Under the pieces are notes generated by a model. The model worked only from the letters and a program-made list of their open reading frames with translations. It ran no database searches and was not told the DNA's origin. Shown in pieces: positions 1-53,737 of a stretch of DNA of 64,000 bases (position 1 is the stretch's first letter; every line of letters begins with the position of its first letter). This DNA comes from Amphirosellinia nigrospora. Taxonomy: Eukaryota; Ascomycota; Sordariomycetes; Xylariales; Xylariaceae. A program made the translations under genes and the position numbers. The stretch is from positions 8,777,569 to 8,841,568 of the forward strand of contig SCHM01000002.1 of assembly GCA_004123355.1 (NCBI GenBank), written 5' to 3'.

Positions 1-464
1 TGGTCGGTTTAGCATGACGTAGTAGGGTCGAGCAAATTTGGTCTTTGACACGATCTCAAAGCGAAGGCCGAGGACGTTCCCGTGGTCGACAGCGTTGGGA
101 TCGGGGTCATTGACCTTGAATGTGGTGATGGAGGCGCATGCGCGGTACAGACAACGCTGCTTGTGCGCGCCTTGCGCCGCGCATCGCGCGAGGAGCTTCT
201 GCTTGGTTATATCGCTGGTCTCGGATGATTGTGATTGGAGCATCTGGCGCGTTGCATCGGCCGTCATCAACGTTGCCGTTTGCAGCCTGACGTCGTTCTT
301 CAATGAGTCGACTGCGTGCTTGTTAGCATCCTCGCCATACGTAAAAGTAAACAAAGCTCGGGAGCAGCGTCGGTTCCCGTACCCTGTGCTCTAAGTTTCG
401 CAATTTCATCGTGCAATCTGTCTGCCACGGAGAGCTCGGGGGATTGGGACGACCGAGTAGCCAT
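1..464 (-). CDS. CENP-O/Mcm21-like kinetochore protein, 3' part off the window
   Basis: Kinetochore subunits of this family act in the inner COMA/CCAN complex that links centromeric nucleosomes to the outer kinetochore. Exon 1 is 464-383 and encodes a 27-residue start beginning MATRSSQSPELSVADRLHDE. A 71-bp GT-AG intron at 382-312 carries a GCTAAC branch site. Exon 2 runs from 311 to the left edge. It encodes an alpha-helical stretch (DSLKNDVRLQTATLM), then a Cys/Arg-rich segment, then the pattern HGNVLGLRFEIVSKTKFARP followed by YYVML. This is the conserved core of CENP-O, where a LG-I/L-RFE strand precedes a PYY turn. The remaining C-terminal part lies outside the window. Identification rests on that motif and gene style, not on a search. 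No frame break is seen in the visible part. Confidence 0.6.
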
Positions 465-1404
465 GTTGATGTGACAAGAGTTGATTCCAGTTGTTGATGT
501 TGTTGTCACTTTAGGTATGTTTTGAATACCCGGTTGGTAGCTGTGCTGCTCAGATACTCTCGATAGTGCCTGGCTAGGACCAATGACGGGGCCAAATTGG
601 GCGGGGTTTAGGCCAGGTAACTTCCGAGAATTGCCAGCCGGAAGGCCAAAGTAGGATAGGTAACATATCAAGATTGTGGGTTGGTGCATCTCTCGGATCC
701 TCTTCACAGGGGTCTTAGCCCTGCAGATAAATACAAGTAAGGAAGAGGTAGACAGGTACCTCCAGGCCAGAACCAGACAGTACTGCTTTGAAATTGGAAG
801 CCAGTTAGCCGCCCCATCTCTCTCCGGAGAGAACACTTTTCAAGCTCTAGTTGGTTTCGAGGGATGAGATTGTCCGTTATGGCCTGAAGCGTCTGTTCTC
901 TTCGTTAGGTATACACTTGCCTTGCCTTGCAACCTTCTGTCCCTGCCTCTTCTCGGGGTTTTTTTCTTCTTCTTCCCACTGTCCGCTCGTTCCGGGATTG
1001 CCTGTCCCAGATTCCACATCCACATCCAAATCGGCGTCACCACACAACTATTTACGTAGTGCGCTACGTAAATGAGTCGCGAAAGGCCACATTTACCTAT
1101 TGTTTTCTGTGTCTAATAGTACTTGTCTCGGTCCTTGTTGCGTATCTCCTCAAATAAAAGAAAGATATTTTTTTGAAACGGCATACCATTTGCTTGCCCG
1201 TCGTCGGTACACTTATACTTAGGAGGGGCACAGGCACAGTCTATTTTCAGCTACTTTAGTAAGACGAACTTTTTGATAGCACTTGGCAATAATCACTCGC
1301 CCGTACTGTACGCCACGTGCGACGAAACCTTCCAAGCTCGCCCAGCGCGACCCTGCCCATTAACACTCCCTTCGCCTACTACACAAGCCACGGCACAAGC
1401 ACGA
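465..1404. other. Divergent intergenic region
   Basis: This holds the shared upstream region of the leftward CENP-O-like gene and the rightward acetyl-CoA transporter gene. It has pyrimidine-rich stretches near 950-985. No conserved coding sequence or RNA gene is seen. Confidence 0.5.
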
Positions 1405-3183
1405 ATGGCCCAAACTCGACGGCCAAAGCCATCCAAAAGAGACAAGCTGTCAGTCTCGACCAGTGGCGCTTCCTTCGGTCAGCCCAACGACGGCATGTCG
1501 AATGTCGAGCTCCGGCGCAAGAATGCCGCCCCCGTCGACTCGGGCCAGGTCACGTCGAACCTGATGGCCCGCGAATCCTTTTCTCTGGACCACGCCGTCC
1601 CCAGGACCCCCGTCGTCAACAACCATGGGTTTTTCGAGCTTCCCCGCGCCGACCAGCGCAATTTTTTACTGCTGGTCCTGTTATACTTCCTCCAGGGTGT
1701 GCCCATGGGCCTGGCCGGCGGCTCTGTGCCCTTTCTCCTCAAGGAACACCTGTCGTTTGGCGAAATAGGCGTCTTCAGCTTGGCTGCCTACCCGTACTCG
1801 TTGAAGCTGTTCTGGAGCCCCATCGTCGACGCCGTGTGGAGCCCGAGGTTTGGCAGGAGAAAGAGCTGGATCCTTCCGATTCAATTGATGTCAGGTTTCG
1901 GCATGTTGTGGTTGGGTTCGAAGATCGATGAGCTGATGGCAACCACCGGGAAACCAGGTGGGCCGAGTGTCTGGAGCTTCACGGGTTGGTGGTTCTTCCT
2001 CGTCTTCATGTGCGCCACCCAGGACATCGCCGTCGACGGTTGGGCTTTGACTTTGCTGACCCCCGGCAATGTCTCCTACGCCTCCACGGCGCAGACCGTC
2101 GGTCTTACCGCTGGCCATTTCTTGTCTTACACTGTATTTCTGGCTTTCAACTCGGAGGATTTTGCGAAAAGTATTTCCGATCTGTGCCTGCGGAGGGGGG
2201 TCTGATGGATCTCGGTGGTTATCTTACCTTTTGGGGTTGGACGTATATCGCTATCACGGCCGGTCTCGCCTCCTCAAAAAGGAAGAGAAGACACAGAACG
2301 AGGATGGTATATGGGATGTCTATAAGATCATGTGGTGGATGTTCTCAAGCTTAAAAACATTCAGACAATCATCATTGTTCATCTAATCTCCAAAATCGGC
2401 TTCCAGGCCAATGACGGTGTAACAAACCTCAAGCTCTTAGAGAAGGGGTTCGGTAAGGAGAACATGGCCTTGACAGTCCTCATCGACTTTCCTTTTGAGA
2501 TTGGCTCGGATACTATGCGGGTAAATGGTCCCAGGAATACACGCCCATGCGGCTCTGGTGTTGGGGGTTCATCGGTCGACTCCTCGCGGCCATCGTTGCC
2601 CAATTACCGTCAGCATTTTCCCAGCCGACGGCGTAAACCTCTTGTACCTTCTTCTTGTCATTGGCGAACACGTGTTCTCGACCTTTACGCAGACCGTCAT
2701 GTTTGTGGCAGTCTCGGCCTTTCGCCATGCCCGGGTTTGCGGACCCTGTCATAGGCGGCACTTATATGACATTGCTCGCGACGTAGGTTTCCCCTCGTAT
2801 TATCTCGATCTATACATGCTGATCTGACATTAGGGTATCCAATCTTGGTGGCACATTCCCGAGGTACTTCGTCTTCGATTGGTAGATTCGTTCACACAGG
2901 CTACGTGTCGCCCTCCATCAGCTAGTCAGGTTGAGAAACTAGACACTTCGTTGCTCAAGAGCCCACTGGTGACGGAGGTATTCTCTTGTGCCGTCCAAGC
3001 GGAGAAAGAACGATGTACAAATGGCGGGGCTCTTGTGAGATTCTCCACGACGGCTACTACATAGTGAACGTATTGTGCGTCCTCGTCGGCATTGTAACCT
3101 TCGTGATGTACATTCGGAAAAAGGTTCTGGCCCTTCAAAACCTGCCGTTAAGGGCTTGGAGGTTGAATACACAGAAAGCATGA
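1405..3183 (+). CDS. Acetyl-CoA transporter (SLC33A1/AT-1 family), frame-broken
   Basis: Members of this major-facilitator-like family move acetyl-CoA from cytosol into the ER/Golgi lumen for lumenal acetylation. The start chosen is the ATG at 1405 (MAQTRRPKPSKRDKLS). Conserved blocks include FFELPRADQRNFLLLVLLYF, a VPMGLAGGSVPFLLKE loop, FWSPIVDAVWSPRFGRRKSW, and CATQDIAVDGWALTLL. Later membrane segments are readable in other frames up to VNVLCVLVGIVTFVMYIRKK and the stop at 3183. A 51-bp intron with a CTGAC branch site lies at 2783-2833. The conserved protein changes frame about eight times, near 2168, 2271, 2336, 2507, 2610, 2715-2740, 2877 and 3030. Nearly every change is one missing base, often in a short run. 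Protein conservation is otherwise excellent and no substitution stops are seen, so consensus error is more likely than a pseudogene. Confidence 0.85.
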
Positions 3184-3783
3184 CAAAAAGAATTTCTTGG
3201 TTGTATACTCCTACATGTACACTAGATCTAGAGAATAACGAAATTTATTCAAAGTACTCTGCTTCTACGTATCTGTTGCTTCGACCTGGGATGAGAGGTT
3301 GTTGCTCTCATCGTTCTCAAGAACTTTGGGTGGTTGATAGGTATAGAGATAGCCTGGGTAAGGCTCCAACTCATCCAACATAGTCAACATAATTACCAGC
3401 TTGCAGTGATGGTACGACAAGGATCACGAGTTCGTCGCGCATAATCATCGTACATAGTTTTATAGGTGTAGAGAAGCGGACAGTCAGAGCACCTCATCGG
3501 GTCGGGTCCCGTCGATACATCGTGAACAGGAGAGACCCATGCTTCTTGCACGTCGGGATATGCGAGGATGATTAATTCGCTGTATATACTGCGTAGTCCA
3601 TATTGCACTCACCCAAGTACTTAACGAAGGCGCAATGGAATCATGTTTGAAAAACAAAGCCACCACCCTATTAAGACAGGCACGCCCATTTCAATGCCTC
3701 GTCTCGGTTGTGTATGTATCTTCATGTGTCAACAGAGTCAAGAAATGAACCAAATCAGACAAAAATATCGCGCAGGTAGGACT
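3184..3783. other. Convergent intergenic region
   Basis: This is 600 bp between the 3' ends of the transporter gene and the CREG-like gene. No conserved reading frame or RNA is seen; it presumably holds both 3' UTRs. Confidence 0.4.
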
Positions 3784-4683
3784 TTACTCCGGGCTCGATG
3801 CAATTATAGAACAAAACCATTCACAAGTCACCAGCGACGCCGACGCCCACTCCTTCCAACCCTTCTTCTCACCAGGAAGTGAGACACTTTCCCACTCGTC
3901 GCGCGTGACGCTCTTCCACTCATCAACGGGGATCCAGCCGATGTAGGCGCGATCGCCAAAGCCGCCGACCCAGTATACCTGCTGAACGACCAGCCTCACG
4001 AACTGAGCCTCGTGGATTCGGTTTCCTGGTAGCCAATACTTGGCATCCGGATGCTTCTCGACGAAACACTGAGACAAGGCGGCGGTGGATACATCGTCAA
4101 TCTTCTCGATGTAGCCCAGCAGACTGAAGCGCGGTAAGTTGGCGGCGCTGTACGGAACCATCTCTTTAGGTGGCGGGTCCTCATCCTCATCATCAGAATC
4201 GAGCCCGAGCCAGCTCATGAGACGAGACAAAAGGCTTGGAGTAGAGGTGGTGGAGGCGGATTTAATTCGTTTGTCAGGCGGGTAAGGGGGCGTCCACTGC
4301 TGGGCAAGACTGATATTGGACCCGTCTCGTACGTTCTTGAACGTTGTCTCGATGTTGATGGCCAAAAAGGTCGGGTTGCCCTCGTCCTCACAGTCGGCGA
4401 CATATTCCATCAATGAGTGTGGCATACCGCCGAGGCCATCCGGTCGGTTCTCCTTGGCACCGTACCCGGCCCGCTCATTGTCTGCAGGGAAGGTAGTCGC
4501 GAGGTTACCCAGAGGCGTCAGCGCTAGGATGCGCCGACCCAGCACTGCCGACTCATACGAGGTCGGAATCCTGTGTCCCGTCGATGTTGACGGGTTGCTG
4601 AAGATGTGCTGTGGTGGTGAGAGCGTGCCGGCTTCGGCCGCCGCGGCAGCTAGTGAGATGATGGGGATGCTGGAGAACTTCAT
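3784..4683 (-). CDS. Secreted CREG-like / PNPOx-like split-barrel protein
   Basis: Fungal proteins of this family have a pyridoxamine-phosphate-oxidase-like FMN-binding split barrel, as in CREG, and enter the secretory pathway; their reaction is unknown. The start is the ATG at 4683, which gives a signal peptide (MKFSSIPIISLAAAAAEAGT) and then SYESAVLGRRILALTPLGNL, the typical first barrel strand. Upstream in-frame codons to 4791 have no such character. The middle holds ANLPRFSLLGYIEKI, CFVEKHPDAKYWLPGN and the family's C-terminal WVGGFGDRAYIGWIPVDEW block. After WKEW the annotated tail looks random. A shift of one base there gives GVGVGVAGDL and a stop at 3821, so the true end is probably 3821 and one G may be missing. 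The low-complexity acidic insert near DSDDEDED is fungus-typical. Confidence 0.75.
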   Translation of the reverse strand: MKFSSIPIISLAAAAAEAGTLSPPQHIFSNPSTSTGHRIPTSYESAVLGRRILALTPLGNLATTFPADNERAGYGAKENRPDGLGGMPHSLMEYVADCEDEGNPTFLAINIETTFKNVRDGSNISLAQQWTPPYPPDKRIKSASTTSTPSLLSRLMSWLGLDSDDEDEDPPPKEMVPYSAANLPRFSLLGYIEKIDDVSTAALSQCFVEKHPDAKYWLPGNRIHEAQFVRLVVQQVYWVGGFGDRAYIGWIPVDEWKSVTRDEWESVSLPGEKKGWKEWASASLVTCEWFCSIIASSPE

Positions 4684-5260
4684 CGCGGGATGCACTCGAT
4701 GGGAGAAACCAACGGGGGGAATAGGAGGAAGTGCAGACCGTGACCCCAAGCTACGTTTTTGTTTGTTATATATCGAGCTCCGGGGATGCATTGATCACCC
4801 GATGCAATCCGGGGCTTGTACGTACACCTACCTAGGTAGCTGCAGGTCTCATGCATGTACTGCTAGGAGGTATGATGCTGCATTTGGCTAGTGGACGTTA
4901 TGTGAAACGGGTCCTTCCTTCGGTACCCACAGTGGAGGGTACACAAAGTAGGTACCTAGGTACCTAGGTAGGTAAAGTCCTATGAAATCTATGGCTAATT
5001 CAATAGTATGCATTATCTGAAGCAATTGCCACCCGCCCCACACTGCATTCAATAGCAAAGCGAAATCACGTGACCCAACTGGGGCTTCCCGCCCACGAAA
5101 TCAAATCTGGTGCTGTGACTCCTCCAAAGTTCCGTCGCCCCCGAACAGAAGCCCGTCTCCCACTTACGCTCTGTCCACTGGCACGCTCTCACCTCGACAC
5201 AACAACGCCAACGCCAATACAATCACCATCACATAATCTCTCTCCGACTCGTCTTCCAAC
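4684..5260. other. Divergent promoter of CREG-like gene and eS30
   Basis: This short region separates two divergent genes. It holds a TACCTAGGTA-type repeat cluster at about 4947-4974 and a TCACGTGACC palindrome (CACGTG core) near 5067. That palindrome may be a bHLH/Cbf1-type site for the ribosomal protein gene; this is an inference from the motif only. Confidence 0.45.
4947..4974. repeat. TACCTAGGTA-type simple repeat
   Basis: Self-complementary units of GGTACCTA/TAGGTACC run head to tail here. Similar tracts recur at 26573-26649, 30593-30614 and 40791-40912, all intergenic. Confidence 0.7.
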
Positions 5261-5999
5261 ATGGGTAAAGTGTACGATACCACAAATTGTTACATCCAGA
5301 TTGGCCAAGGATAAAGCTAACAAGTCTACAGTCACGGCTCACTGTAAATCACACCGTCCACTCGATATGGCGACCGAAGCTAACATGTTCCAAAAGCGCT
5401 CGTGCGGGTAAAGTCAAGTCTCAAACCCCAAGCAAGTCTACCCTTTGTCGTTCAGTCGAACGTCTACTTAGCCAGCATAGCACTAACCATCTCTCAGAGG
5501 TTGAGAAACAAGAGAAGAGCAAAGTTCCCAAGGGCCGCGCCAAGAAGAGACTCCAGGTCAGCATTCCCAGTCTTAGTCCTCGCCGCACTCAAAAGACTAT
5601 GGCTCCCGATCATCTACCCGTCCTTCTATCCGTCCTCAACACATTGCATTCTACAGAGCAGCCGATTTGCGCCATGATCCTGGGCACCGAGCAAGGTCTT
5701 GTCCAGCATTGTAAGCCTTGGGCGCATAAGATTAATAGCCGTTGTTATGCGTGCTTAATCTGACCGGCCGGTCTGAGTGCCTAGCATCATGGACGCGAAT
5801 CTGGCTTCGAACTCATCACAACAGAAATCATTTCTCCGTCTTGGACGAAGACATGGCTGACGAAGAGCAGTACACCCGTCGTTTCGTAAACGTAACCCTT
5901 ACTGGAGGAAAGCGCAAGGTCAGTAGACACGAAACTGGACCATGTATACCCCATCGACTAATCCGCAACACAACAGATGAACCCAACCCCGGCACATAG
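5261..5999 (+). CDS. 40S ribosomal protein eS30 (FAU-type), six exons
   Basis: eS30 is a short, very basic small-subunit protein. Exons are 5261-5271, 5332-5343, 5397-5431, 5498-5556, 5871-5918 and 5977-5999. Together they encode MGKVHGSLARAGKVKSQTPK, then VEKQEKSKVPKGRAKKRLQ, then YTRRFVNVTLTGGKRK, then the terminal MNPNPGT. Intron 3 (5432-5497) starts with GCAAGT rather than GT and has a CACTAAC branch site, so it is a GC-AG intron. Intron 4 (5557-5870) is 314 bp, much longer than its neighbours. The exons sum to 188 nt. One missing base in the C/A run near 5983 puts the expected C-terminus out of frame. Restoring it gives 62 residues, exactly the family length. No ubiquitin-like fusion is present, as is usual in fungi. 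Confidence 0.93.
5557..5870 (+). other. Long intron 4 of eS30, possible snoRNA host
   Basis: At 314 bp it is about five times longer than the other introns in this gene. Ribosomal protein introns often host snoRNAs. A weak C-box-like ATGATCC near 5672 and CTGA boxes near 5759 and 5772 are present, but no convincing terminal stem is seen. A snoRNA is possible but not shown. Confidence 0.2.
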
Positions 6000-8900
6000 A
6001 CGCAATATTGTGCTCGATCGCGCGAGAGCAGCCGAAGCCGTATTTCAGAAAATGGGAGGCGATGGACGAGCAGCGACCAATAGTGTGCTACTCTGAGCGC
6101 CCATCTCTTTGGTCCGGCAGACAATGTCTACCCTGCTCGATTATCTATGAAAGGAATGATTCAGAAATGGGATCATGATAGTAGACACGTTCGCACGTTG
6201 TTTTTCGGAGTCAAACGGCGGTATCATTTAGGCTTGGTCATAACCTTTAAGCCCACCCAATCTGTATCTACACAGATCGTGCCTAGCAAGGCAGGCAAGA
6301 TAATCAGAGCTCAGCATTGCCTCTGATAAATTGTGTCTCATTTTCGCTGATCCATGTGATATCGGTGCCTCATCTAGTATGATCCCTGCGTCAGATAACG
6401 ACTGGTAATGTCCTGAGCTACCAAAATGCCGTATAAATGTGTCGACACCAAGAAAGAGGCATATGTTTTATGGTTATGCCAAACATGTTTGCTAGCTTCC
6501 TATACTCTAGCGACAACTATGGTTGTCCAAGTGAATTGAGTGTCAATATAGGTCTTCACCATAGAACTCGCCGATAACGACTCATAGTTGCTCCTTTGTG
6601 GTACTGCCTCTGTTCGTGTTATGCTTGTAGGATAAGATCATGTACATATATGCTGAGGTTAAATGCCAGGCTAGGTACACCTAAGGAAAAGTAGGAAGAA
6701 ACTACGTATACAGGAAAGCAGCCTGCCACGCCGTCCTACGAAGAATGCCCAACCGACATCTCATTGCTTCTGCGTGAGCCCCCAACCTCGTTGGCCTTTC
6801 TCGTCAGTCAGCTTTGTATAAGTACTCTACTAGACGTGTTCATTTCGGTTTATTATTTTTCTTTTGTGCCTTGCGTGGTTACATTGGACGTCTTTTATTT
6901 TAAGGTCCGATATTAGCAGCCAAGAACAGAGTTGTCATTCTGTACAGTACTGAGGTAGGTAGATACTATGTGCAAATGCTGATTCCGAGATCGGCCTGTT
7001 CTATTCAACCACTCCCTTCTCCTGCTACTCTGTTTCATCTTGCACCAAAGTAGTGGCTCTAGGCACTTCATAAGGTGACTATTGCTAATCAGTCTTGTAA
7101 ATCAAGGCTATTCCCCAGCTACGCGGTACTCAAAGTCCTTTCTACAGGTAGTGAACTGGTGTCCATGTGCCTTGGACTTGGTAAGTATTGTTTTAGACTG
7201 TTCGAGCTTGAGGGTCCGTAGGCTCTGAACCGAGGCATCATTGCAATTGGGTACTTACGCACGTTAATAAGACTGGTTTCAAATCCTACGGCCGAATTTA
7301 TCCACCATACCTCTTAATAATACTGCTTCGATACTAGTATATATGTATTCGCCAACCGTGATGCCCTATATTTAATACAATTCACTCCCGACACACTGAA
7401 TTAGGGCATCCTTCAAATATAAAAGTACGACTGCGTCGTTCTCAATACAGTTCTTTAGATACAACTTAAAAACCTCCAAGAGAAGAGATTGAAGCCGAGT
7501 TGCTCGTTTAATTCCCCGGGAGTGTAGGGTGAGCTGTGGCCTGATCCATTGTGATTCTCTACTCTCTCGCTAAATAATATCGGTGCTTAACCAGAGCTGT
7601 TAGCCCTGTCGACTTTTTACCGTCAACTGCCGGCCTACCAACCTAGCAGTAGTTCGTATATATACACGTCCTTTTCACACAATGATCATTTGGAAGGAAG
7701 GGGTTCTTCATAACTAGGTCTCACTTAATAAAGAAAACACTCCAGACCGGAGTTTTAGTAGTCTCTAGACGTCCATACTGGAACTACAATAGGGCAGTAA
7801 GTTTCTAAATAGTAAAATCCATAGTATAATTCGTTTGCCAGTCCGACCACTTGTTTCTGTTCTGATTTTGCTCCTTCCCATCATGTTATTTCTTTGGATA
7901 TTTCATAGAAGCGCCTATGCTCTAACGGTGCTTTGAAGGGGCTGAGGCTTTAGTCCCGGTAAAACTATCCGTTGCAATCGATTTAGAGCCCCAGCCCTCC
8001 CGGTACCTATTGTGTGTGCTAACTATAGAGCAGGCGAGTCGATATCATGACTAAGAAATAGCTCTTGAGACTTGATACAATGTGTCGGTAAACTCACAGG
8101 CCACAACAGCTCGTTGGTAATTCCTAAGAGACGATTGTCAAGGTCCCTTCGTCATTGATCAGAGTAGATCATCCGATTACTGGCCGACCAGTTTACTAAT
8201 TCCTTATTCCTCGCTGCCTTTTCGCTAGGCTAGTAGGGTCTACATCTGGCAGGCGTGGTGCCCTCCCATTTATGGAAGGAAGACAGATATCGATCGTTGT
8301 GTGATAGACCACTGCCCTTCTTCCGTGGGCCGACTGCTTATGACCGTCAAAGCTAAATATACTACGATGCGCGTAAATACAACTACTTTCTGAGGGCTTG
8401 TAGACGGGCGTAGACGATTTGTTGTCGTTGTGTATGTTGCGATGAAAGGAGGTGCGTCTAGTACTGAAACCGCATTCTTCCTCATCCTTATAGACACCAA
8501 ACATAGCAAAATAATGATCACGCCAAGGATTATAGTCGTCCCGCTCGCTAGGAAATGCCATCAACGCCAGCACATGTTTGTTTCCAACTGAGCTCACTCA
8601 TGCGTGATTATCATCGCCCTCGCAATGATAATAAACTCTGATCTCTACGTCCTCCCCGTCTTACGAGCGTCTGTCCAACGACAGCTGCAGCCACGTCCCA
8701 ACTTGAGGGCTACAGGGTACGACAACATGCAGGAGAGCAGTAGGCAAGTTGTACAAAAACATTGCTTATCTCCTCCGAGTGTCGTAGCCCGGTTCACAAA
8801 TCACGAAGGAGGAGCGTTTATTTGCTTCAATATGGCAGAATGCTAGGGTGGCAAGACATGGCCTCCGGATGACTTAACTTTATAGTAGGTTGACCGAATC

Positions 8901-9647: not shown

Positions 9648-12614
9648 TTACAGACTCATAGTGAGCCATTCCCATTCCTGGGGTCCAGAGCCGGCGCCAG
9701 GATTCACCACGCCGTTGGGATGTCCACTGGGCAATCCCATCATGCTGGAGCCCATCAAAGGCCGCTGCGTCATGCCAAAGTTGTTGGCCATGCCTAGATT
9801 CCCGGAGGTCTGCATGGGTACAAAACACCCGACGAGCCTATAGATCGGGGGTTTCATTCGAGCCAGTGGAATTCTCGGCTGTCGACATCCTACACTGCTG
9901 ATTCGTTGGTCCAGAGGCCTTGCTGCTCCGGCGCTGCCGTTTCGACGAGCCGACGGCACTGATGTTACGGTAGCGATGCCGCTCCAGGGCCAGGGGTGCT
10001 CTTAGGAGGGGCCGCCGCGATCGGAACCACCCCTGCCCCCGACAGGACCAGTCGTCGAGCCTGCATGGCTGGCCGGTGTGCTACCTGCATGTTACACCCG
10101 AGCCGCCGCCACTGGCTGGGCTCTCGCCTTCGTTGACGCTGCCGGCCCTGGTGGTCGTGGATGGTGGTGTTGTTGCCGTTGCTTGTGTCGCAGCGTTGGA
10201 GGTGGATATGGCGAGCGTGGAGTTCTTTCGCGAGGCAGGCCCTGATGTCGTTACCGGACGCAGCGCTGGCCGTTCTTGGTCCGTGTGCTGGTGCCGCCGA
10301 CCGGTAGACTTGCCTGACCCACGATTGCGCTTTTTTGATGACATCCGTCTTCAGACTCAGTGGCCTCACGACTCCGTGCAGCTTTAAGAACAGACCACAT
10401 GCATTGCACAACGGCTGGCCCTCAGGGTTGCGTCGCCAGAGCGGCGTGGTTCGTGTAAAGCAGTTTGTGCACGTCGTCGGGTTGCTGCCATCGCCCTGGC
10501 TTCCACCAGCTGCCTGCAGGTTGCTCGTAGATCCATGCTTCGAGCCGAGCGGCGAGGCGGGTCGGCTGGGTGCAACAGACGAATAGCCCGAGGTAGGACC
10601 AGTTCCATCTGCGGGTGGCGAGTTTGGATTAGACTGTGCTAAGCGGTCGAAGGCGTTGCCATGGGCGCCCATCGGAGTGGAGGTATTTCGTGGGATTTTT
10701 TTGACGCTTGTCGCCCATGTTGCGGAAAGATTGCGAGCGCGGCAGGCCATTCCAGTCGCCTGTGTCATAAATGTCCGTCGTGGCACCTCCGATTGTGACT
10801 TGTTTCCGAGGCGGACCGCCCGGGTAGCGAGCAGCGTGCGTACTGAACTGGCCGGGCAAGGAAGCATCCCAACCCAGAGGGTTCGAACTGCTCATGTCCA
10901 TGCTCGAGTCATCGCCGGGTGAGATCTCTTGTGGCATACTCATATTGCGATCTGCGAATGCACCGCCTTCGTCGTCTTCATTATCCGAGTCGGTGCCAAA
11001 TGAGAACATGTTTTCCTGCATGGCGCCCACGCCGGGCGAACGAGCCGGCGGGTCCGGTTGGAACACTTGGCTGGGATCTACATGCCAAACTGGGCCCAAC
11101 CGTGAAGGCGAAGGCATATCTGAACTAGTCGTAGGAAACCCATTAGGATACATGAAATGCTGGCCCATTTGGTTTCCAATAGAACTGGGGATTTGGCGAA
11201 AACTTGCGGTTCGCTGGTGGCGCATATCCACGGACCCAAAGTACATGTTGTCGTTCTCGCCATGGGGTGTGGTGTCGATACTGCCGACTGGTAGGCCGAT
11301 CCGGGAGGGGAGAAATAGTCGGTGCCGAGGGGCCCCGGATGCTGTCCATAGATATTAGAAAACGGGCCGTGGGTGACCATGGGCGAGGTGGATGGTGAGA
11401 TCATGAAGTTTTGCTGAAAGGGGCCCGCAGACATGATACTGGCGTCGTTGTCCATCTGGAACGTATCGAGCGAAAACGGGATGGCGTGCTGCTGTGGTAC
11501 GTGCGAAGAGCTTGTGTGATTAGGTATGTCTAAGCTATAGTCATGTAGGTCGGCATCAGCATCTAATTCGTGGCCGCCCCCTGCATTGTTACCGAGGGCA
11601 GAGACATGCGGAGAAAAGTTGGCCGGACGCTTTCGGTTCTAGGAGATGGTTAGCCATGCGTACATGAAGCAACCGCAGCCCCGGCGATGAGGCGGGAGGT
11701 AAGATGACGTCTACTAGGACTATCAGGAAGAGGCATAGCCGAAATAAGTCATCCTTACACGCCGCTCGTCGATGCTGGTTTTGCGATGATGTCGAGTGAC
11801 ATAACCGAATTCGTCCTGAGTCCTCTGATGAGGCGGCACCGGCACAGACTGGGGCACGAACCGCTGTGCCGAGGCTTTGCGAGACTTGATGGGAATAGCG
11901 GCGGCCGTGGCACGGGTCGCCGACTTGTCCTTCTCGCGATGACCCGTCTTGAGCGACGATGGAAACCCGGCAGACGGCGCCACATTGTCGGCGAATACGA
12001 AGTCGTCCAGATTCATGGGCTCGGACTGCGACACATCTTGATCCGTCGCCTTTCTGAGTTGTGCGATACCACTGGGAGCATTGGCATCCCCGACACTGGA
12101 TTGTGGTAGCTATTAGGACGAGTGGACGTGGTGGAATCGACGGCGTCCTCGGTGGTAGTTGTACTAGTAGAAAACGGGGTGGGCAGGATTCGCCATGCAC
12201 AGGGATGAGCTCGTCATGCTGGCCTTGCTGCTTTCGCCATTTCTGGAGGTTTACGTGCTGCATTCGCCATGTAAAGTTTTCCATGCGCTCCTGTCTCGGC
12301 AGACCTTGCTTCGCCTTGCTATAAAACCTCCATACCGTCATGGCCAACGGATCCCGTGCGTGCAGTTCACCTAATGTCTCGTTCGAATCAGACACGCCGC
12401 CCTCGAGATGAGGGAACAGCGGCGTTCTGAGGACATCGTACCGCGCGGCATTATACGCTGCCGCCGTGTCCAAGTTCAACTCCCGAATGCGCAAGTCCCC
12501 GGGGCTCCCCTCATTGTCCATGTCCATGTCCATCTCTCCCACCCCAGCTGCCGTTTCGAAGGGCCGCCTCGGGAAGCGGAAGTCATGCTCTGTTATCGTA
12601 GGGTTCTTCGCCAT
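9648..12614 (-). CDS. areA: GATA zinc-finger nitrogen regulator AreA/NIT2
   Basis: AreA activates nitrogen-catabolic genes when ammonium and glutamine are scarce. The start at 12614 reads [18 protein letters not shown], the family N-terminus. The fungal GATA N-terminal domain follows ([15 protein letters not shown], then [15 protein letters not shown]). Next comes the acidic [13 protein letters not shown] segment, an [11 protein letters not shown] block after a 120-bp intron at 11758-11639, and a single GATA finger at 10471-10397. The finger is C-X2-C-X17-C-X2-C with [20 protein letters not shown], followed by the basic tail [11 protein letters not shown]. The protein ends in EWEWLTMSL at 9648, the very conserved AreA C-terminus that contacts the co-repressor Nmr. 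Several one-base frame changes occur (after IPVHGE near 12200, within 11200-10600, near 10330 and after the finger tail). Domain order and both termini are complete, so I treat the gene as functional with sequence errors. Confidence 0.93.
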
Positions 12615-13629
12615 TGGAAAAAGCCGCAGTCGTTCACGGTGATGTTGGGCCCGTGGCCGTGGTGTATGGGAAATAAAGAGGGAGAAGCTCCCCTCCCGTT
12701 CCCTCTGCGCCTGTGGACGGGTGGACGGGGGAGCTCCTCTCTTTCGTATGACAAGTCAACTTTATTCCCCACGTTCGAGCGAAGGGGGGGCGTGTGTGTA
12801 CAAAGTTCGGCTGACACCGTTCCTCGGCCCGTCGATGAATAAAAAACGGTGGTCCAGGGTTTACAATTTTACTCGAGCTCTAACTTATCCAAGGATATAC
12901 AATGATGGCACATATCTAGGGGGAACAAAAACACCAAAGTTGTGGTGGTTTGACTGGCTGCTTCGGTAATGGTAATGGGAGTGGGCGATGGGTTACAGTA
13001 CGTAGTGTAGGTAGGAGATTGTGCGATATGGTGTTGCTCTCCGTCCCCTCCGCTCGGTCGAGACTGAGGTGTGACGGGGGGTGGAGGAACGACAAGCAGC
13101 GAGCAAGCAGCCAGAAGGCGGGAACAGCAGCAGATGCAGCAGTAGCGTACAGACATACTAGTACATACATACCTAAGTCGACTGCAACAATAAAATAGAC
13201 GACTACCTTAGTTACAGCACGTACGGCGGCTGCTAGCCCTAGCAGGGTGCTGGTATTGGCGTGGTGGGTGCATGGTGTGCGTGGTGTGAGTGGGCGGCAG
13301 TGACGAGATGTTGCTGGTGGATGATGGGTCGGGCTCGGCTGAATGACATGGGGGTCGAAGTAAGTGGGTGTGCCGCTGGGGACAAGGGCAGGGGGCAGGG
13401 AGCAGGGGACAGGGAACATGGGATATAGGCCACGCTACTGCGCTGTTTGTGCAGGCATGTTGCGCAATCCGCCCGTGAAAGGGACCACTTGGGTGAGGGT
13501 CTACTGCTGCGTGAACGGAGCACCGTCAGAGCTCCATATACCTACACTAGCTATACGTAGGAATAAACCGGTACCGGTCTGTCTGTCTACGTTGGCGTGG
13601 AGAAACACAGGCCATGCACAGAGATATTT

Positions 13630-39276: not shown

Positions 39277-40440
39277 ATGGAGACGAACGAGGACCAATCC
39301 CCGTTAAAGTTACCGGCCGGTATTACGGAAGACTATATCGACTGCCAAGAATCAAGCGGCCTCATATGGCACGTACTGAAGGCCGGAGACCCGGGAAAGC
39401 CGTTGGTACTGTTCTGCCACGGGTATCCGGAGCTTGCGTACTCATGGCGGAAGGTCCTCACACAAATTGCTGGCGCTGGTTATTACTGTGTTGCCATGGA
39501 TCAGAGGGGATATGGTCGTACGACAGGAGTGCAACCATCAGGCCACGAGGTTGACTTGAATGACTACGTCTTCACCAACTTAGTGCGTGATTTGGTTTGT
39601 CTCGTCTACGGATTGGGGTTTACGGAGGTCTTCTGCATCATAGGGCACGACTTCGGCGGCGTCAGCTCGGCCATGGCGGCCCTAATGCGCCCAGATCTTT
39701 TCAAGTCCACAATCCAGCTGTCTCATCCGCATCACCCAACTCGGACGCCGCGGCTCGGAGATCAGCAATCGAAGGTCCAACTCGACATTCAGGCGGAGTT
39801 GGCCAAGCTAAATCCCCCACGCAAGCACTACAAGTGGTACAATTCAACAGCTGAAGCAGCTTTCGAGTGGGATAACCCGCCCCAGGGAATGGCGAAGTTT
39901 CTGCGTGGGTACTTTCACCTAAAGTCTGCGGATTGGTCCAAGAACGATGTGCGTCCGCTCCAGGAGTGGAGTGCGCCGGCGATGGCGGTGATGCCGGAGT
40001 ATTATATCATGAAGAAGGACGACTCGATGCCGGGTGCCGTCGCGCGTAACATGGGAGGTGAAGACTACAGCAAAACAGAGCCGTGGCTCCCGCCAGATGA
40101 GCTCCAAGTATATTGCGACGAATGGAAGCGCACGGGGTTCCAGGGCGGGCTAAACTGGTATCGTGCACAAACGGCCACGACGCCACAGGCAGCTCGAGAT
40201 ATGCTACTGTACGCCGGCAGGAAGATAGAAGTCCCGTGCGCGTACATTGGCGGCAAACAGGACTGGGGGACCTTTCAGCAACCGGGTGCCATCGAGAGCT
40301 ACGAGGATGAGAAGACGGTCAAGGCAGGCTGCTTTCGAGGTGCTACGCTGGTGGACGGTGCTGGTCACTGGGTGCAACAAGAACGACCCGCGGCCGTGAT
40401 TGAAGCTATTCTTTCTTTCTTTGATACTTTATCACCATAG
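39277..40440 (+). CDS. Epoxide hydrolase (alpha/beta-hydrolase fold), intact
   Basis: Soluble epoxide hydrolases open epoxides to vicinal diols through an aspartyl-ester intermediate. The single-exon protein has 387 residues. The oxyanion motif HGYPE is at residues 48-52, the RGYG turn at 77-80 and the nucleophile Asp in IGHDFGG at about residue 125. The acid is probably Asp329 in GGKQDWG and the base His364 in GAGHWVQQERP. A cap domain with WYNSTAEAAFEWDNPP and NWYRA supplies the candidate tyrosines that activate the epoxide. An Asp nucleophile rather than Ser argues against an esterase; a haloacid or haloalkane dehalogenase is a less likely alternative. There is no signal peptide, so it is probably cytosolic. 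The frame is undamaged, in contrast to the two genes to its left. Confidence 0.85.
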   Translation: METNEDQSPLKLPAGITEDYIDCQESSGLIWHVLKAGDPGKPLVLFCHGYPELAYSWRKVLTQIAGAGYYCVAMDQRGYGRTTGVQPSGHEVDLNDYVFTNLVRDLVCLVYGLGFTEVFCIIGHDFGGVSSAMAALMRPDLFKSTIQLSHPHHPTRTPRLGDQQSKVQLDIQAELAKLNPPRKHYKWYNSTAEAAFEWDNPPQGMAKFLRGYFHLKSADWSKNDVRPLQEWSAPAMAVMPEYYIMKKDDSMPGAVARNMGGEDYSKTEPWLPPDELQVYCDEWKRTGFQGGLNWYRAQTATTPQAARDMLLYAGRKIEVPCAYIGGKQDWGTFQQPGAIESYEDEKTVKAGCFRGATLVDGAGHWVQQERPAAVIEAILSFFDTLSP

Positions 40441-41011
40441 CTTGGAGGTTTTTGTTGTACTTTTGTTCTGTTGACTGACTGGATTTGGTCCCAGGTTTCG
40501 AACCTTGTGGTAGGGTTGTAATAGTATCAGTTGGGTACTAGGCCCCTAGTGAATGCCATGTTTATTATGTCGATGTGGTAATAATCATGACATGTAACCG
40601 ACGAGAAAAGATCAAGAATATCAACATGCCACGTACCGGTTGTGTTGAGCTAAAAGGGGGGGGGAAGCTGGGCCTACAAGCATGCACTCTTGGTTTAATA
40701 AGATGTTGGGTTGTTGGCCCAGGCTGTTTGCCAGTCCATTTATTGTACCTAAGAGTTCGGATAGGCGCAGGTTCCTTGCCGCTTTTCATGTATCTACCTA
40801 CCTCTGACCTACCTATCCAGTACCCTTATGTACCTACCCAGGTGGGCAGAATGGTATCTAATGTACATGGATATGGGCAACCGTGGTTCAACTATGTACC
40901 TAAGGTACCTAATTGACTATCAGGTAGCCAGCCGCTGCTGCCTCAATCTAGAGTTGGGGCCTCTCTACCTTCCCCGGGGTTCAAATATGGCCATAGCAGT
41001 ACTCTCTCCAA
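40441..41011. other. Intergenic with TACCT-type repeats
   Basis: The 3' flank of the epoxide hydrolase gene and 5' flank of the tRNA gene. TACCTACC/GTACCTA tracts lie at 40791-40850 and 40896-40912. Confidence 0.5.
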
Positions 41012-41150
41012 GCCGTACTAGAGAAATGGGTAAGCCAAAGCAAATGGCCTGCTGGTATAGACTATGAACAACGTCGCTAACTCTAATGATTACAGTTAAC
41101 TCATCGGCCTCCTAAGCCGAAGATTCTCGGTTCGAGTCCGAGGTACGGTG
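41012..41150 (+). tRNA. tRNA-Arg(CCU) interrupted in the D-loop by an mRNA-type intron
   Basis: The mature tRNA is 73 nt after removal of 41030-41095. The acceptor stem is GCCGTAC (41012-41018) with GTACGGT (41143-41149), six Watson-Crick pairs and one G-U. TA fills positions 8-9. The D-arm is GAG...CTC with the G18G19 pair at 41028-41029 in the loop. The anticodon stem is TCGGC/GCCGA with loop CTCCTAA (anticodon CCT, 41111-41113). The variable loop is AGATT. The T-arm is CTCGG/CCGAG with loop TTCGAGT. The discriminator is G at 41150. Both internal Pol III promoters are intact: an A-box-like TAGAGAAATGG at 41019-41029 and B box GGTTCGAGTCC at 41129-41139. The only oddity is the 66-bp insertion right after G19. 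Known eukaryotic nuclear tRNA introns sit after position 37, so this location is exceptional. Confidence 0.8.
41030..41095 (+). other. 66-bp spliceosomal-type intron inside the tRNA D-loop
   Basis: It begins GTAAGC, carries a perfect fungal branch site GCTAAC at 41076-41081 with the branch A 15 nt from the end, and finishes TTACAG. Length and signals match the mRNA introns elsewhere in this window. It bears no resemblance to the bulge-helix-bulge substrate of tRNA endonuclease that I can see. Confidence 0.65.
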
Positions 41151-41160
41151 CTTCTTTTCC

Positions 41161-41169
41161 TTTTTTTTT
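41161..41169 (+). terminator. RNA polymerase III poly-T terminator
   Basis: Nine T residues lie 11 bp after the tRNA discriminator base, preceded by a TTTT at 41154-41158. This supports Pol III transcription of the interrupted tRNA gene. Confidence 0.8.
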
Positions 41170-41638
41170 ATTTACTATATCTACTTCTGTGCTCCCATGT
41201 CCCATCTTTTTACTGTATTCACCTCCTTCCTTCAATTTCCTACCAAAGGTGGTCGATCACATCATGCCCGGGTGGTAGCGAGAGATGCACATCACTTTAC
41301 CTCTCGTCATGTATGTGTAGCTATGCTAATTAATCACTTCACAAAAGACCATGCCCATGAATAGGTAGGCATTGCATTCAAGCAAGGCTTCATGTTGAAC
41401 TTGAATTGTGATGGGCCATCTCCAAGATAGAGAGAGCATGACTCTCACGCGTGCCTCCCTGAGAGGAGTGAGCTCTGGGGGAAGCGCTTTGCCGTGGATT
41501 TGGTTCGAAACGAAAAGAACAACATTGAACTTAATCAGAGCTGGCACCTTGAGCCTAAGTCACAGGCGACTCATCCCCCCATCCCCCAGCCCCTTATCCT
41601 CCTATCCCCCTATCCCCCTATTTGAAGAGGTGAGTTGC
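41170..41638. other. Intergenic between tRNA and methyltransferase genes
   Basis: No recognised gene. The CCCCCATCC/TATCCCCC tract at about 41575-41620 is a short C-rich low-complexity stretch. Confidence 0.4.
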
Positions 41639-42445
41639 TCATTTTGTACATACTATCTGACCATCAATTACGCAGTAGAAGGCATCGTCGGCCGTAGCCC
41701 ACTCCCTCCACGCATCGGGCATGCGTGCTGCCATCTCTTGAGCGACGTACCCCAGCTCTACTCCTCTCTTCAAGTCAGACGAGGACTCCAGCCGCGATGC
41801 CATGTTTTCACCCCACCAGTTTCGGTCGAGCGCATCCGAATATGTGACCGCGGCAGCCGAAGCCGAAATCCCTCGGGGCCGAAACCTGCTCTCCGCGCAA
41901 ACTCCTTGCCTCGGCAACCCTTCATGGTCTTTCCGGCGTCGTTTGCGAGCCGCTCCATTAGTGCCAGGCACTCGTTGATCTCCTCCGTGCGTGGATACAC
42001 TACCACGCTCGACCATTCCACTTCTCGCGCGCAAACGAAGCCCCCGGGCTTGCACACCCGTCGCATTTCCTTCAGACCCAAGACAGGGCCAGGGTCCCCT
42101 CTCCACCTGGTAAATGACCGAGTACTTGATGAGTGTGAACGATATCAAATGAATCGTCGTCAAAGGGAGCTTCAATACATCCCCTACTAAAAAGGATACA
42201 TTTGACACGCCACGCTGCTTAGATAACCCACGTGCGGACTCGATGGCATTGCTACTGGCGTCCAGCCCCGTGACGCTCCCATTTGGTACATGGACTGCGA
42301 GATCAAGCGTGATGGTGCCGGGCCCGCAACCAACATCTAGAATGCGCATATTGGCTTTTAGAGGCAGCATGTACGCCGAGTTCTCTGCTGCCGTTCGGCG
42401 AGAATAGGAGGCAATCATGGCCTCGTTATAATTTCGCATGTCCAT
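41639..42445 (-). CDS. Class I SAM-dependent methyltransferase (UbiE/Methyltransf_11 type)
   Basis: The N-terminus MDMRNYNEAMIASYSRRTAA leads to motif I ILDVGCGPGTITLDLA, then VTGLDASSNAIESAR (acidic ribose-binding loop) and FLVGDVLKLPL. The post-motif GLKEMRRVCKPGGFVCAREV reads in the next frame, and the C-terminal ELGYVAQEMAARMPDAWREW block reads in the original frame again. Two slips, near 42110 and 41880, therefore interrupt the middle of the protein. About 270 residues is normal for fungal enzymes of this family, which methylate small molecules. The methyl acceptor cannot be told from sequence. The gene lies head to tail with the dehydrogenase gene on its right. A function in a secondary pathway with neighbouring oxidoreductases is inference. 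Confidence 0.8.
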   Translation of the reverse strand: MDMRNYNEAMIASYSRRTAAENSAYMLPLKANMRILDVGCGPGTITLDLAVHVPNGSVTGLDASSNAIESARGLSKQRGVSNVSFLVGDVLKLPLTTIHLISFTLIKYSVIYQVERGPWPCLGSEGNATGVQARGLRLRARSGMVERGSVSTHGGDQRVPGTNGAARKRRRKDHEGLPRQGVCAESRFRPRGISASAAAVTYSDALDRNWWGENMASRLESSSDLKRGVELGYVAQEMAARMPDAWREWATADDAFYCVIDGQIVCTK

Positions 42446-42679
42446 AATGTATTGATTGTGGAACCTTGATTTATATCAGAATGAAGCTATTGACTATGTG
42501 GTACGGGAACCAATATGACATGATGATAGAGGGGAAAACTGAGCACCAGTCGGCGTTCCAGTGTGACGTCATTTTGCCGGGTGCGCCTATTCGATGCAGC
42601 TTACATTTATCTGACTGAGTAATCTAGGTGGCCGGAGCCGCTTACGGATAGCATATGGTGACAGTCTCGGTGAGGGATT

Positions 42680-52581: not shown

Positions 52582-53737
52582 TTTTGATGTAAGTGTAGGT
52601 GTATCAATGTCATCGGCCAGCTAACGAACATAACTCAGCTTGACAAGCCAACTACTTGAAAGCCGTTCGCCTAAATTTGTATGGATAAAGAGACAACACA
52701 CGTAAATAGCCGCTTTCGGTTCTGAATAGATGTCTTAAAATCTCGGCATGGCGATCTTTGTTTAGGTAAACAAACTCGAATTCCCATACTAATCGCTTTG
52801 TTTTTTATACAAAAGAGACACACAATAGTAGGTTCAGACGGACTTAAACTTGTATGCAGTATTAGATAGACCAGGGGGTAATGTTTTATTTTCTGTCTCA
52901 TTTCATATACTTAGTCTTGCGATTTGGATGTTTTCCCTCACAATAACACTAATATACGAAGCGTAGTAGAAGCTACTAGGATGCGGTTGTTGAAGGTTAT
53001 TTTGGGATTAAATGCATCTGAGCTCATATTCAACGACGTAGTAGTAGTGGACTCTACCCATGAGAAGTAGAAATCAGCAATGTTCTCGTAGTTGTATACT
53101 TGCCGTACTCGGTCACTAGTTGATGGTATTCGTAGGTGAAAGGTGTGCGTCAAGCAGAGCCGCTCTGTCACGAGGCACACACAGATAATAAGAGTAAGTA
53201 ATTATCGTTGAAGCAAAAGTTTAACTCATGAACACGGTGTTTTAAAGCATATATGATCATATGGATAAATCCTGCTAATCTGGGTAATAAACGGCTTAGA
53301 AATACTGACTGTTGAGTGTTAATTCCGGAGCCGTGTGTGGTATACCAGACGCCGTCTCCCTTTCAATTAATAATGTCAACAATCATTTGATATCCATATA
53401 CACTAGAGTATACTTACAACGATGTAGACACCAAATGTTTTTCCAGTCAAGTCATCCGGTATCCCGTTTGTCAATACTGCCGCTATTATCGATGCTGCAC
53501 TGGAGAACTTAGAGTCAATTCTCCACAATAGATATTTTCTCGCACAATATTTAAATAAAAAGGCGTCATGTGTCACACGGATTTTCAGCCCTTGTTTATT
53601 TGTTCCCTTTTCAGTAATATTGGCTATACAGGCCTAACGGAGGTCCGTTGGGGTAGCCCGAAATCTGTGTATATATAGGCTAGTCAGGTCCCGAGCCCTC
53701 TGGAAAGGAATCTAGAGAGCAAGAGGTCCTTTGACGC
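52582..53737. other. Intergenic, no recognised gene
   Basis: AT-rich spacer between the kinase promoter and the cutinase remnant. Confidence 0.4.

Follow-up and report, generated by a model that had tools for sequence, protein, structure and literature searches.

Introns in tRNA genes of the textbook type are removed by a protein endonuclease, and the canonical eukaryotic tRNA intron splits the nuclear gene between positions 37 and 38. In the red alga Cyanidioschyzon merolae introns are found in the D-arm of nuclear tRNA genes, with junctions that are described as bulge-helix-bulge (BHB) motifs in the available parts of PMC9602550 and PMC3978253. Introns of the mRNA type have been reported from the U6 small nuclear RNA (snRNA) of fission yeast (Tani and Ohshima 1989, 1991; as cited in the available part of PMC10484740), and according to the title of a reference given in the same source, splicing of this U6 intron is impaired in pre-mRNA splicing mutants. 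An mRNA-type intron is likewise present in the fungal nuclear 18S rDNA (Rogers et al. 1993; by its title in the reference list of PMC11782384), again a structural RNA gene, the product being a ribosomal RNA made by RNA polymerase I and not a tRNA. Here we analyse a 64-kb stretch of the Amphirosellinia nigrospora contig SCHM01000002.1, referred to as the window in the following, which contains at 41012–41150 what appears to be a split gene for a tRNA-Arg with the anticodon CCU. Judging from the sequence, we favour with moderate confidence the reading of the locus as a nuclear tRNA-Arg(CCU) gene that is transcribed by RNA polymerase III (Pol III) and has a 66-nt spliceosomal intron of the U2 type in its D-loop, after G19 and before base 20. 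Spliceosomal introns in structural RNA genes are already known and the tRNA as host would be the new element; we make no claim to a first report. No description of a tRNA gene with a spliceosomal intron was found in the titles and abstract openings listed from the open-licence literature, which does not establish its absence from print.

The proposed parts of the locus are the following.

41012–41029 (18 nt), + strand: exon 1 of the tRNA-Arg(CCU), from the acceptor 5' strand to G19, placed by its pairing with exon 2 and by the 5'-half score described below
41019–41029, + strand: A box TAGAGAAATGG, uninterrupted, ending where the intron starts, with A at position 11 in place of the usual pyrimidine
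41030–41095 (66 nt), + strand: putative spliceosomal intron at tRNA position 19/20, recognized by its GTAAGC start, branch motif and ACAG end
41030–41035, + strand: 5' splice site GTAAGC, from the sequence, in agreement with GTRAGY
41076–41081, + strand: branch-site motif GCTAAC, in agreement with RCTRAC, the A at 41080 being 15 nt upstream of the intron end
41093–41095, + strand: 3' splice site CAG, in agreement with YAG and containing the first AG past the branch motif, the gap ending in ACAG
41096–41150 (55 nt), + strand: exon 2 of the tRNA-Arg(CCU), with the rest of the D-arm, the anticodon arm (CCU), the T-arm, the acceptor 3' strand and the discriminator G
41129–41139, + strand: B box GGTTCGAGTCC in exon 2, from the sequence
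41161–41169, + strand: run of nine T (T9), the likely Pol III terminator; a T4 run at 41155–41158 may also serve

When 41012–41029 is joined to 41096–41150, a 73-nt tRNA-Arg cloverleaf with the anticodon CCU is obtained, and it is obtained solely once the 66-nt gap has been removed. ARAGORN recognizes one tRNA-Arg(cct) in the joined sequence and none in the unspliced locus, whether or not an intron in the anticodon loop is allowed, and it reports no tRNA in the whole 64-kb window. These results agree with the initial annotation, which had given the same coordinates for exon 1, the 66-nt insert and exon 2 and had stated that the cloverleaf forms only after removal of 41030–41095. Its description of the cloverleaf as canonical holds for 20 of the 21 stem positions, which are paired (19 Watson-Crick pairs and one G.U wobble, G1.U72), but has to be qualified for this wobble and for the one remaining position, which is an A.A mismatch (A13.A22). 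Pairing between exon 1 and exon 2 is intact at 10 of the 11 positions of the acceptor and D-stem. The Rfam tRNA model gives only 29.1 bits at 41080–41150 (cut-off 29) and flags three pairs as non-standard, two in the acceptor and one in the D-stem. Neither an intact second copy of the tRNA nor a repeat of the intron was found elsewhere in the window, where the best other matches are 10–12 nt long.

A cloverleaf of this kind could also be simulated by a chance tRNA-like 3' end that happens to lie next to unrelated sequence. ARAGORN says little about the join in this respect, as it accepted as tRNAs 891 of 5,897 constructs in which an upstream piece was fused to the 41096–41150 half. Because the program is too permissive when the 3' half is strong, the 5' half was given an explicit score, which is composed of the acceptor pairs, T8, the D-stem pairs, A14 and GG. 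By this score 41012 reaches 23, the runner-up on the + strand of the window 19 and the best other position within 1 kb 17. In random controls two of about 3 million Markov positions attain a score of 23, a figure which, like the chance figures for the splice signals given below, is a guide only, because both the score and the signal sets were devised post hoc, when the sequence had already been seen.

The donor, branch site and acceptor named in the initial annotation are all borne out in 41030–41095, as GTAAGC at the start, GCTAAC with its A 15 nt before the end and ACAG at the end. Among random 66-nt gaps the strict signal set was found in 0 of 3,999,900 and the loose set in 74 of 3,999,900; when 49 border pairs were allowed, corresponding to the freedom of the D-loop, the counts were 7 of 2,999,900 for the strict set and 2,984 of 2,999,900 for the loose set. 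The full set of GTAAGY, RCTAAC and first YAG occurs in two stretches of the window, with both strands searched, and one of these is the tRNA intron. In 100 Markov controls the mean number of full sets per 64 kb is 0.6, and at least two are present in 15 of the 100. Full sets are thus not rare by chance in 64 kb, so the evidence lies in their position at the borders that are required by the tRNA and not in their mere presence. Together with the explicit scoring of the 5' half, this test of the splice borders makes a chance 3' end very unlikely. The sole other stretch of the window with the full set, on either strand, is located at 52589–52638 (+).

The removal of a GT-AG intron follows a rule that is blind to the tRNA, and it yields the D-loop stretch AATGGTTAA. 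All three tRNA-Arg genes of a eukaryote-like contig, L001, carry AATGGATAA here, which has the same length and is one base apart. When the joined sequence was compared with the 71 tRNAs of the fetched loci, the top score of 26.0 was reached with both a tRNA-Arg(cct) (L004, by coordinates) and a tRNA-Arg(tct) (L001), and seven of the eight matches listed are Arg.

The further claim that the insert resembles the mRNA introns around it turned out to be only weakly testable. The total of 29 strict intron candidates in the window shows no excess over the mean of 29.35 in 20 Markov controls, and six of them are coding-supported, as compared to a mean of 2.45 and a maximum of 8 in these controls. The tRNA intron itself is not one of the six strict candidates that have at least 40 open codons on both sides.

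With regard to the machinery, the locus resembles the C. merolae tRNAs in that a nuclear tRNA gene is split within its D-arm, and these introns (PMC9602550 and PMC3978253, in the parts available) would provide the precedent for an atypical D-arm intron that is cut by the tRNA endonuclease, as in some red algae. While the junctions are described as BHB in the alga, a complete BHB (a 4-bp helix between two 3-nt bulges, with flanking helices) was found in none of 672 layouts near the borders of the tRNA-Arg(CCU) gap, relaxed one-bulge forms not being among those tested, and with the exact borders at most two of the four central BHB pairs can be formed. The endonuclease route of the red-alga D-arm introns is therefore without support at this locus. 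It would also leave GT, branch motif and AG, which are present in place of a BHB, unexplained, and we consider it extremely unlikely. The canonical eukaryotic intron likewise splits a nuclear tRNA gene but differs in position and signals, the gap being located at 19/20 and not at 37/38. The initial proposal, an mRNA-type intron removed by the spliceosome from a tRNA made by Pol III, is supported in part: the sequence agrees with a GT-AG intron at 19/20, and the rival endonuclease has no complete BHB in the layouts examined, whereas splicing itself, the use of the tRNA and an origin by reverse splicing are what we infer.

The proposal had also appealed to a precedent for an mRNA-type intron in a Pol III RNA, and the U6 snRNA of fission yeast is such a case as far as the available part of PMC10484740 goes; the tRNA-Arg(CCU) locus would be similar in carrying an mRNA-type intron in a fungal Pol III RNA. 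In contrast to the tRNA, the U6 host is part of the spliceosome itself (PMC10484740, available part). A second difference concerns the B box, which lies in exon 2 of the tRNA locus, whereas the U6 introns of Schizosaccharomyces contain a B-box match according to a title cited in PMC10484740. As the A box ends at the intron start and the B box is located in exon 2, the intron widens the spacing between the two boxes and interrupts neither of them. Pol III might use the uninterrupted A box of exon 1 together with the B box of exon 2 and produce a precursor terminated in the T run, from which the spliceosome would take out the intron as a lariat; the joined RNA would then fold and be processed like an ordinary tRNA. 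The statement that A box, B box and T9 are intact is correct for the B box and the T9 run, both of which are present, and for the A box insofar as it is uninterrupted, but not with respect to the unusual A that it carries at tRNA position 11.

A spliceosomal intron does not necessarily imply a spliced Pol III product, as the spliceosome might act on a transcript of RNA polymerase II (Pol II), either a read-through transcript or that of a small coding gene, that spans the tRNA. On the same strand, an open reading frame (ORF) for a hydrolase terminates upstream of the locus at 40440, and its transcript might have a 3' untranslated region long enough to extend to 41012. In addition, splicing extends the stop-to-stop open stretch of one frame over the border from 27 to 71 amino acids (aa). 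The sole M of this 71-aa stretch is however found near its end, past the junction, and a second frame over the border becomes shorter on splicing, from 100 to 94 aa, the third staying at 3 aa. Since the locus also has its own B box and T run, a Pol II origin of the joined RNA seems improbable to us. A small coding exon was also considered as a candidate and judged unlikely, as the criterion of 40 open codons on either side gives it no support and only one of the three frames is lengthened by splicing.

Several observations, including the frame lengthened by splicing, weigh against our favoured reading of a working Pol III tRNA gene with a spliceosomal intron. A pyrimidine at position 11 and a paired 13-22 are usual, though not strictly defining, traits of tRNAs, and the locus shows A11-U24 and A13.A22 instead. 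All 42 tRNAs of L001 that could be placed by pattern (of 45) have a pyrimidine at position 11, and the A at this position also weakens the A box. Together with G1.U72, the two deviations may indicate either drift or weakness of the A box. The 5' splice site and the branch motif are mostly paired in the fold predicted for the precursor: as compared to a mean of 0.51, the probability of being unpaired is 0.01–0.08 for five of the six GTAAGC bases and 0.11–0.20 for four of the six GCTAAC bases. For the joined RNA, the fold of lowest energy differs from the cloverleaf (-26.4 versus -25.3 kcal/mol); the anticodon and T-stems of the joined RNA are predicted at 0.03–0.04 (0.15–0.17 in the precursor) and its acceptor stem at 0.93–1.0, in predictions that ignore proteins, modification and the co-transcriptional order of events. 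Unmodified tRNA folds often fail to give the cloverleaf.

The unusual A11-U24, A13.A22 and G1.U72 would also fit a present-day pseudogene, derived from a tRNA-Arg(CCU) gene into which an intron or an intron-like insertion had entered recently, the cell being supplied by an intact copy elsewhere. We regard this explanation as rather doubtful, as nearly all stem positions still pair (20 of 21), neither the B box nor the T run is damaged, and the insert begins and ends at splice borders. A11-U24, unusual as it is, still forms a pair, perhaps because pairing is under selection. In a gene that had been dead for long, 10 of 11 pairs between the exons would hardly have survived, and the retained pairing thus counts in favour of a working gene.

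If the locus is indeed such a working gene with a spliceosomal intron, it may even be the sole or principal gene for tRNA-Arg(CCU) in this fungus. Spliceosomal removal of the D-loop intron would in that case be obligatory and the decoding of AGG codons tied to pre-mRNA splicing; we put this forward tentatively. The intron was probably gained late, either by reverse splicing or by insertion, between which the sequence does not discriminate. Reverse splicing has been invoked for U6, according to the available part of the literature on it, because the U6 intron lies near catalytic bases, and this argument does not transfer to a tRNA. A tRNA that is matured by the spliceosome would, if true, break the division of textbook introns between endonuclease and spliceosome. 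It would further extend the range of the spliceosome to a short Pol III transcript outside its own machinery, and would provide a natural case for how introns enter non-coding RNA genes.

Homologs of the locus were searched for in collections that consist of viruses and prokaryotes, and misses therefore say little about fungi. The exact pattern of the 3' half and the pattern of a tRNA-Arg(CCU) with D-loop intron both gave no matches in the viral contigs. A degenerate pattern from the anticodon to the T-arm was found at two loci in genome contigs and at seven in viral contigs; none of these nine loci looks fungal, as judged by the tRNA content, the G+C content and about 260 bases around each match. 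A search for U6 in one genome and 14 control genomes gave no match, and the controls are thus without a fungal reference.

The contig L001, which served as a reference above, is filed under a metagenome-assembled genome (MAG) of Maritimibacter. Its positions 1–8000 contain 45 tRNA genes within 8 kb, on both strands, with anticodons including AGC, AAG, AAT and AAC. We take these four anticodons to be eukaryotic, and L001 is probably a eukaryotic contamination of the Maritimibacter MAG.

In the window, the tRNA locus is flanked by the hydrolase ORF (end 40440, + strand) and by a methyltransferase ORF at 41639–42475 (- strand), for which no relatives were found in the viral contigs. The intergenic region just upstream of the tRNA (40790–40912) contains several TACCTA/GTACCTA words, and downstream of it, at 41590–41623, there are short direct repeats rich in C (TCCCCCTA type). 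Two of the proteins encoded in the window suggest a filamentous ascomycete as its source. One is a kinase, which has its best matches among solved structures in STK38 and CBK1. The other, a nitrogen regulator of the AreA type, is present in two ORF pieces, 9965–10891 and 11589–12755 (- strand), one with a GATA zinc finger and one with a PF08550 (GATA_AreA) domain.
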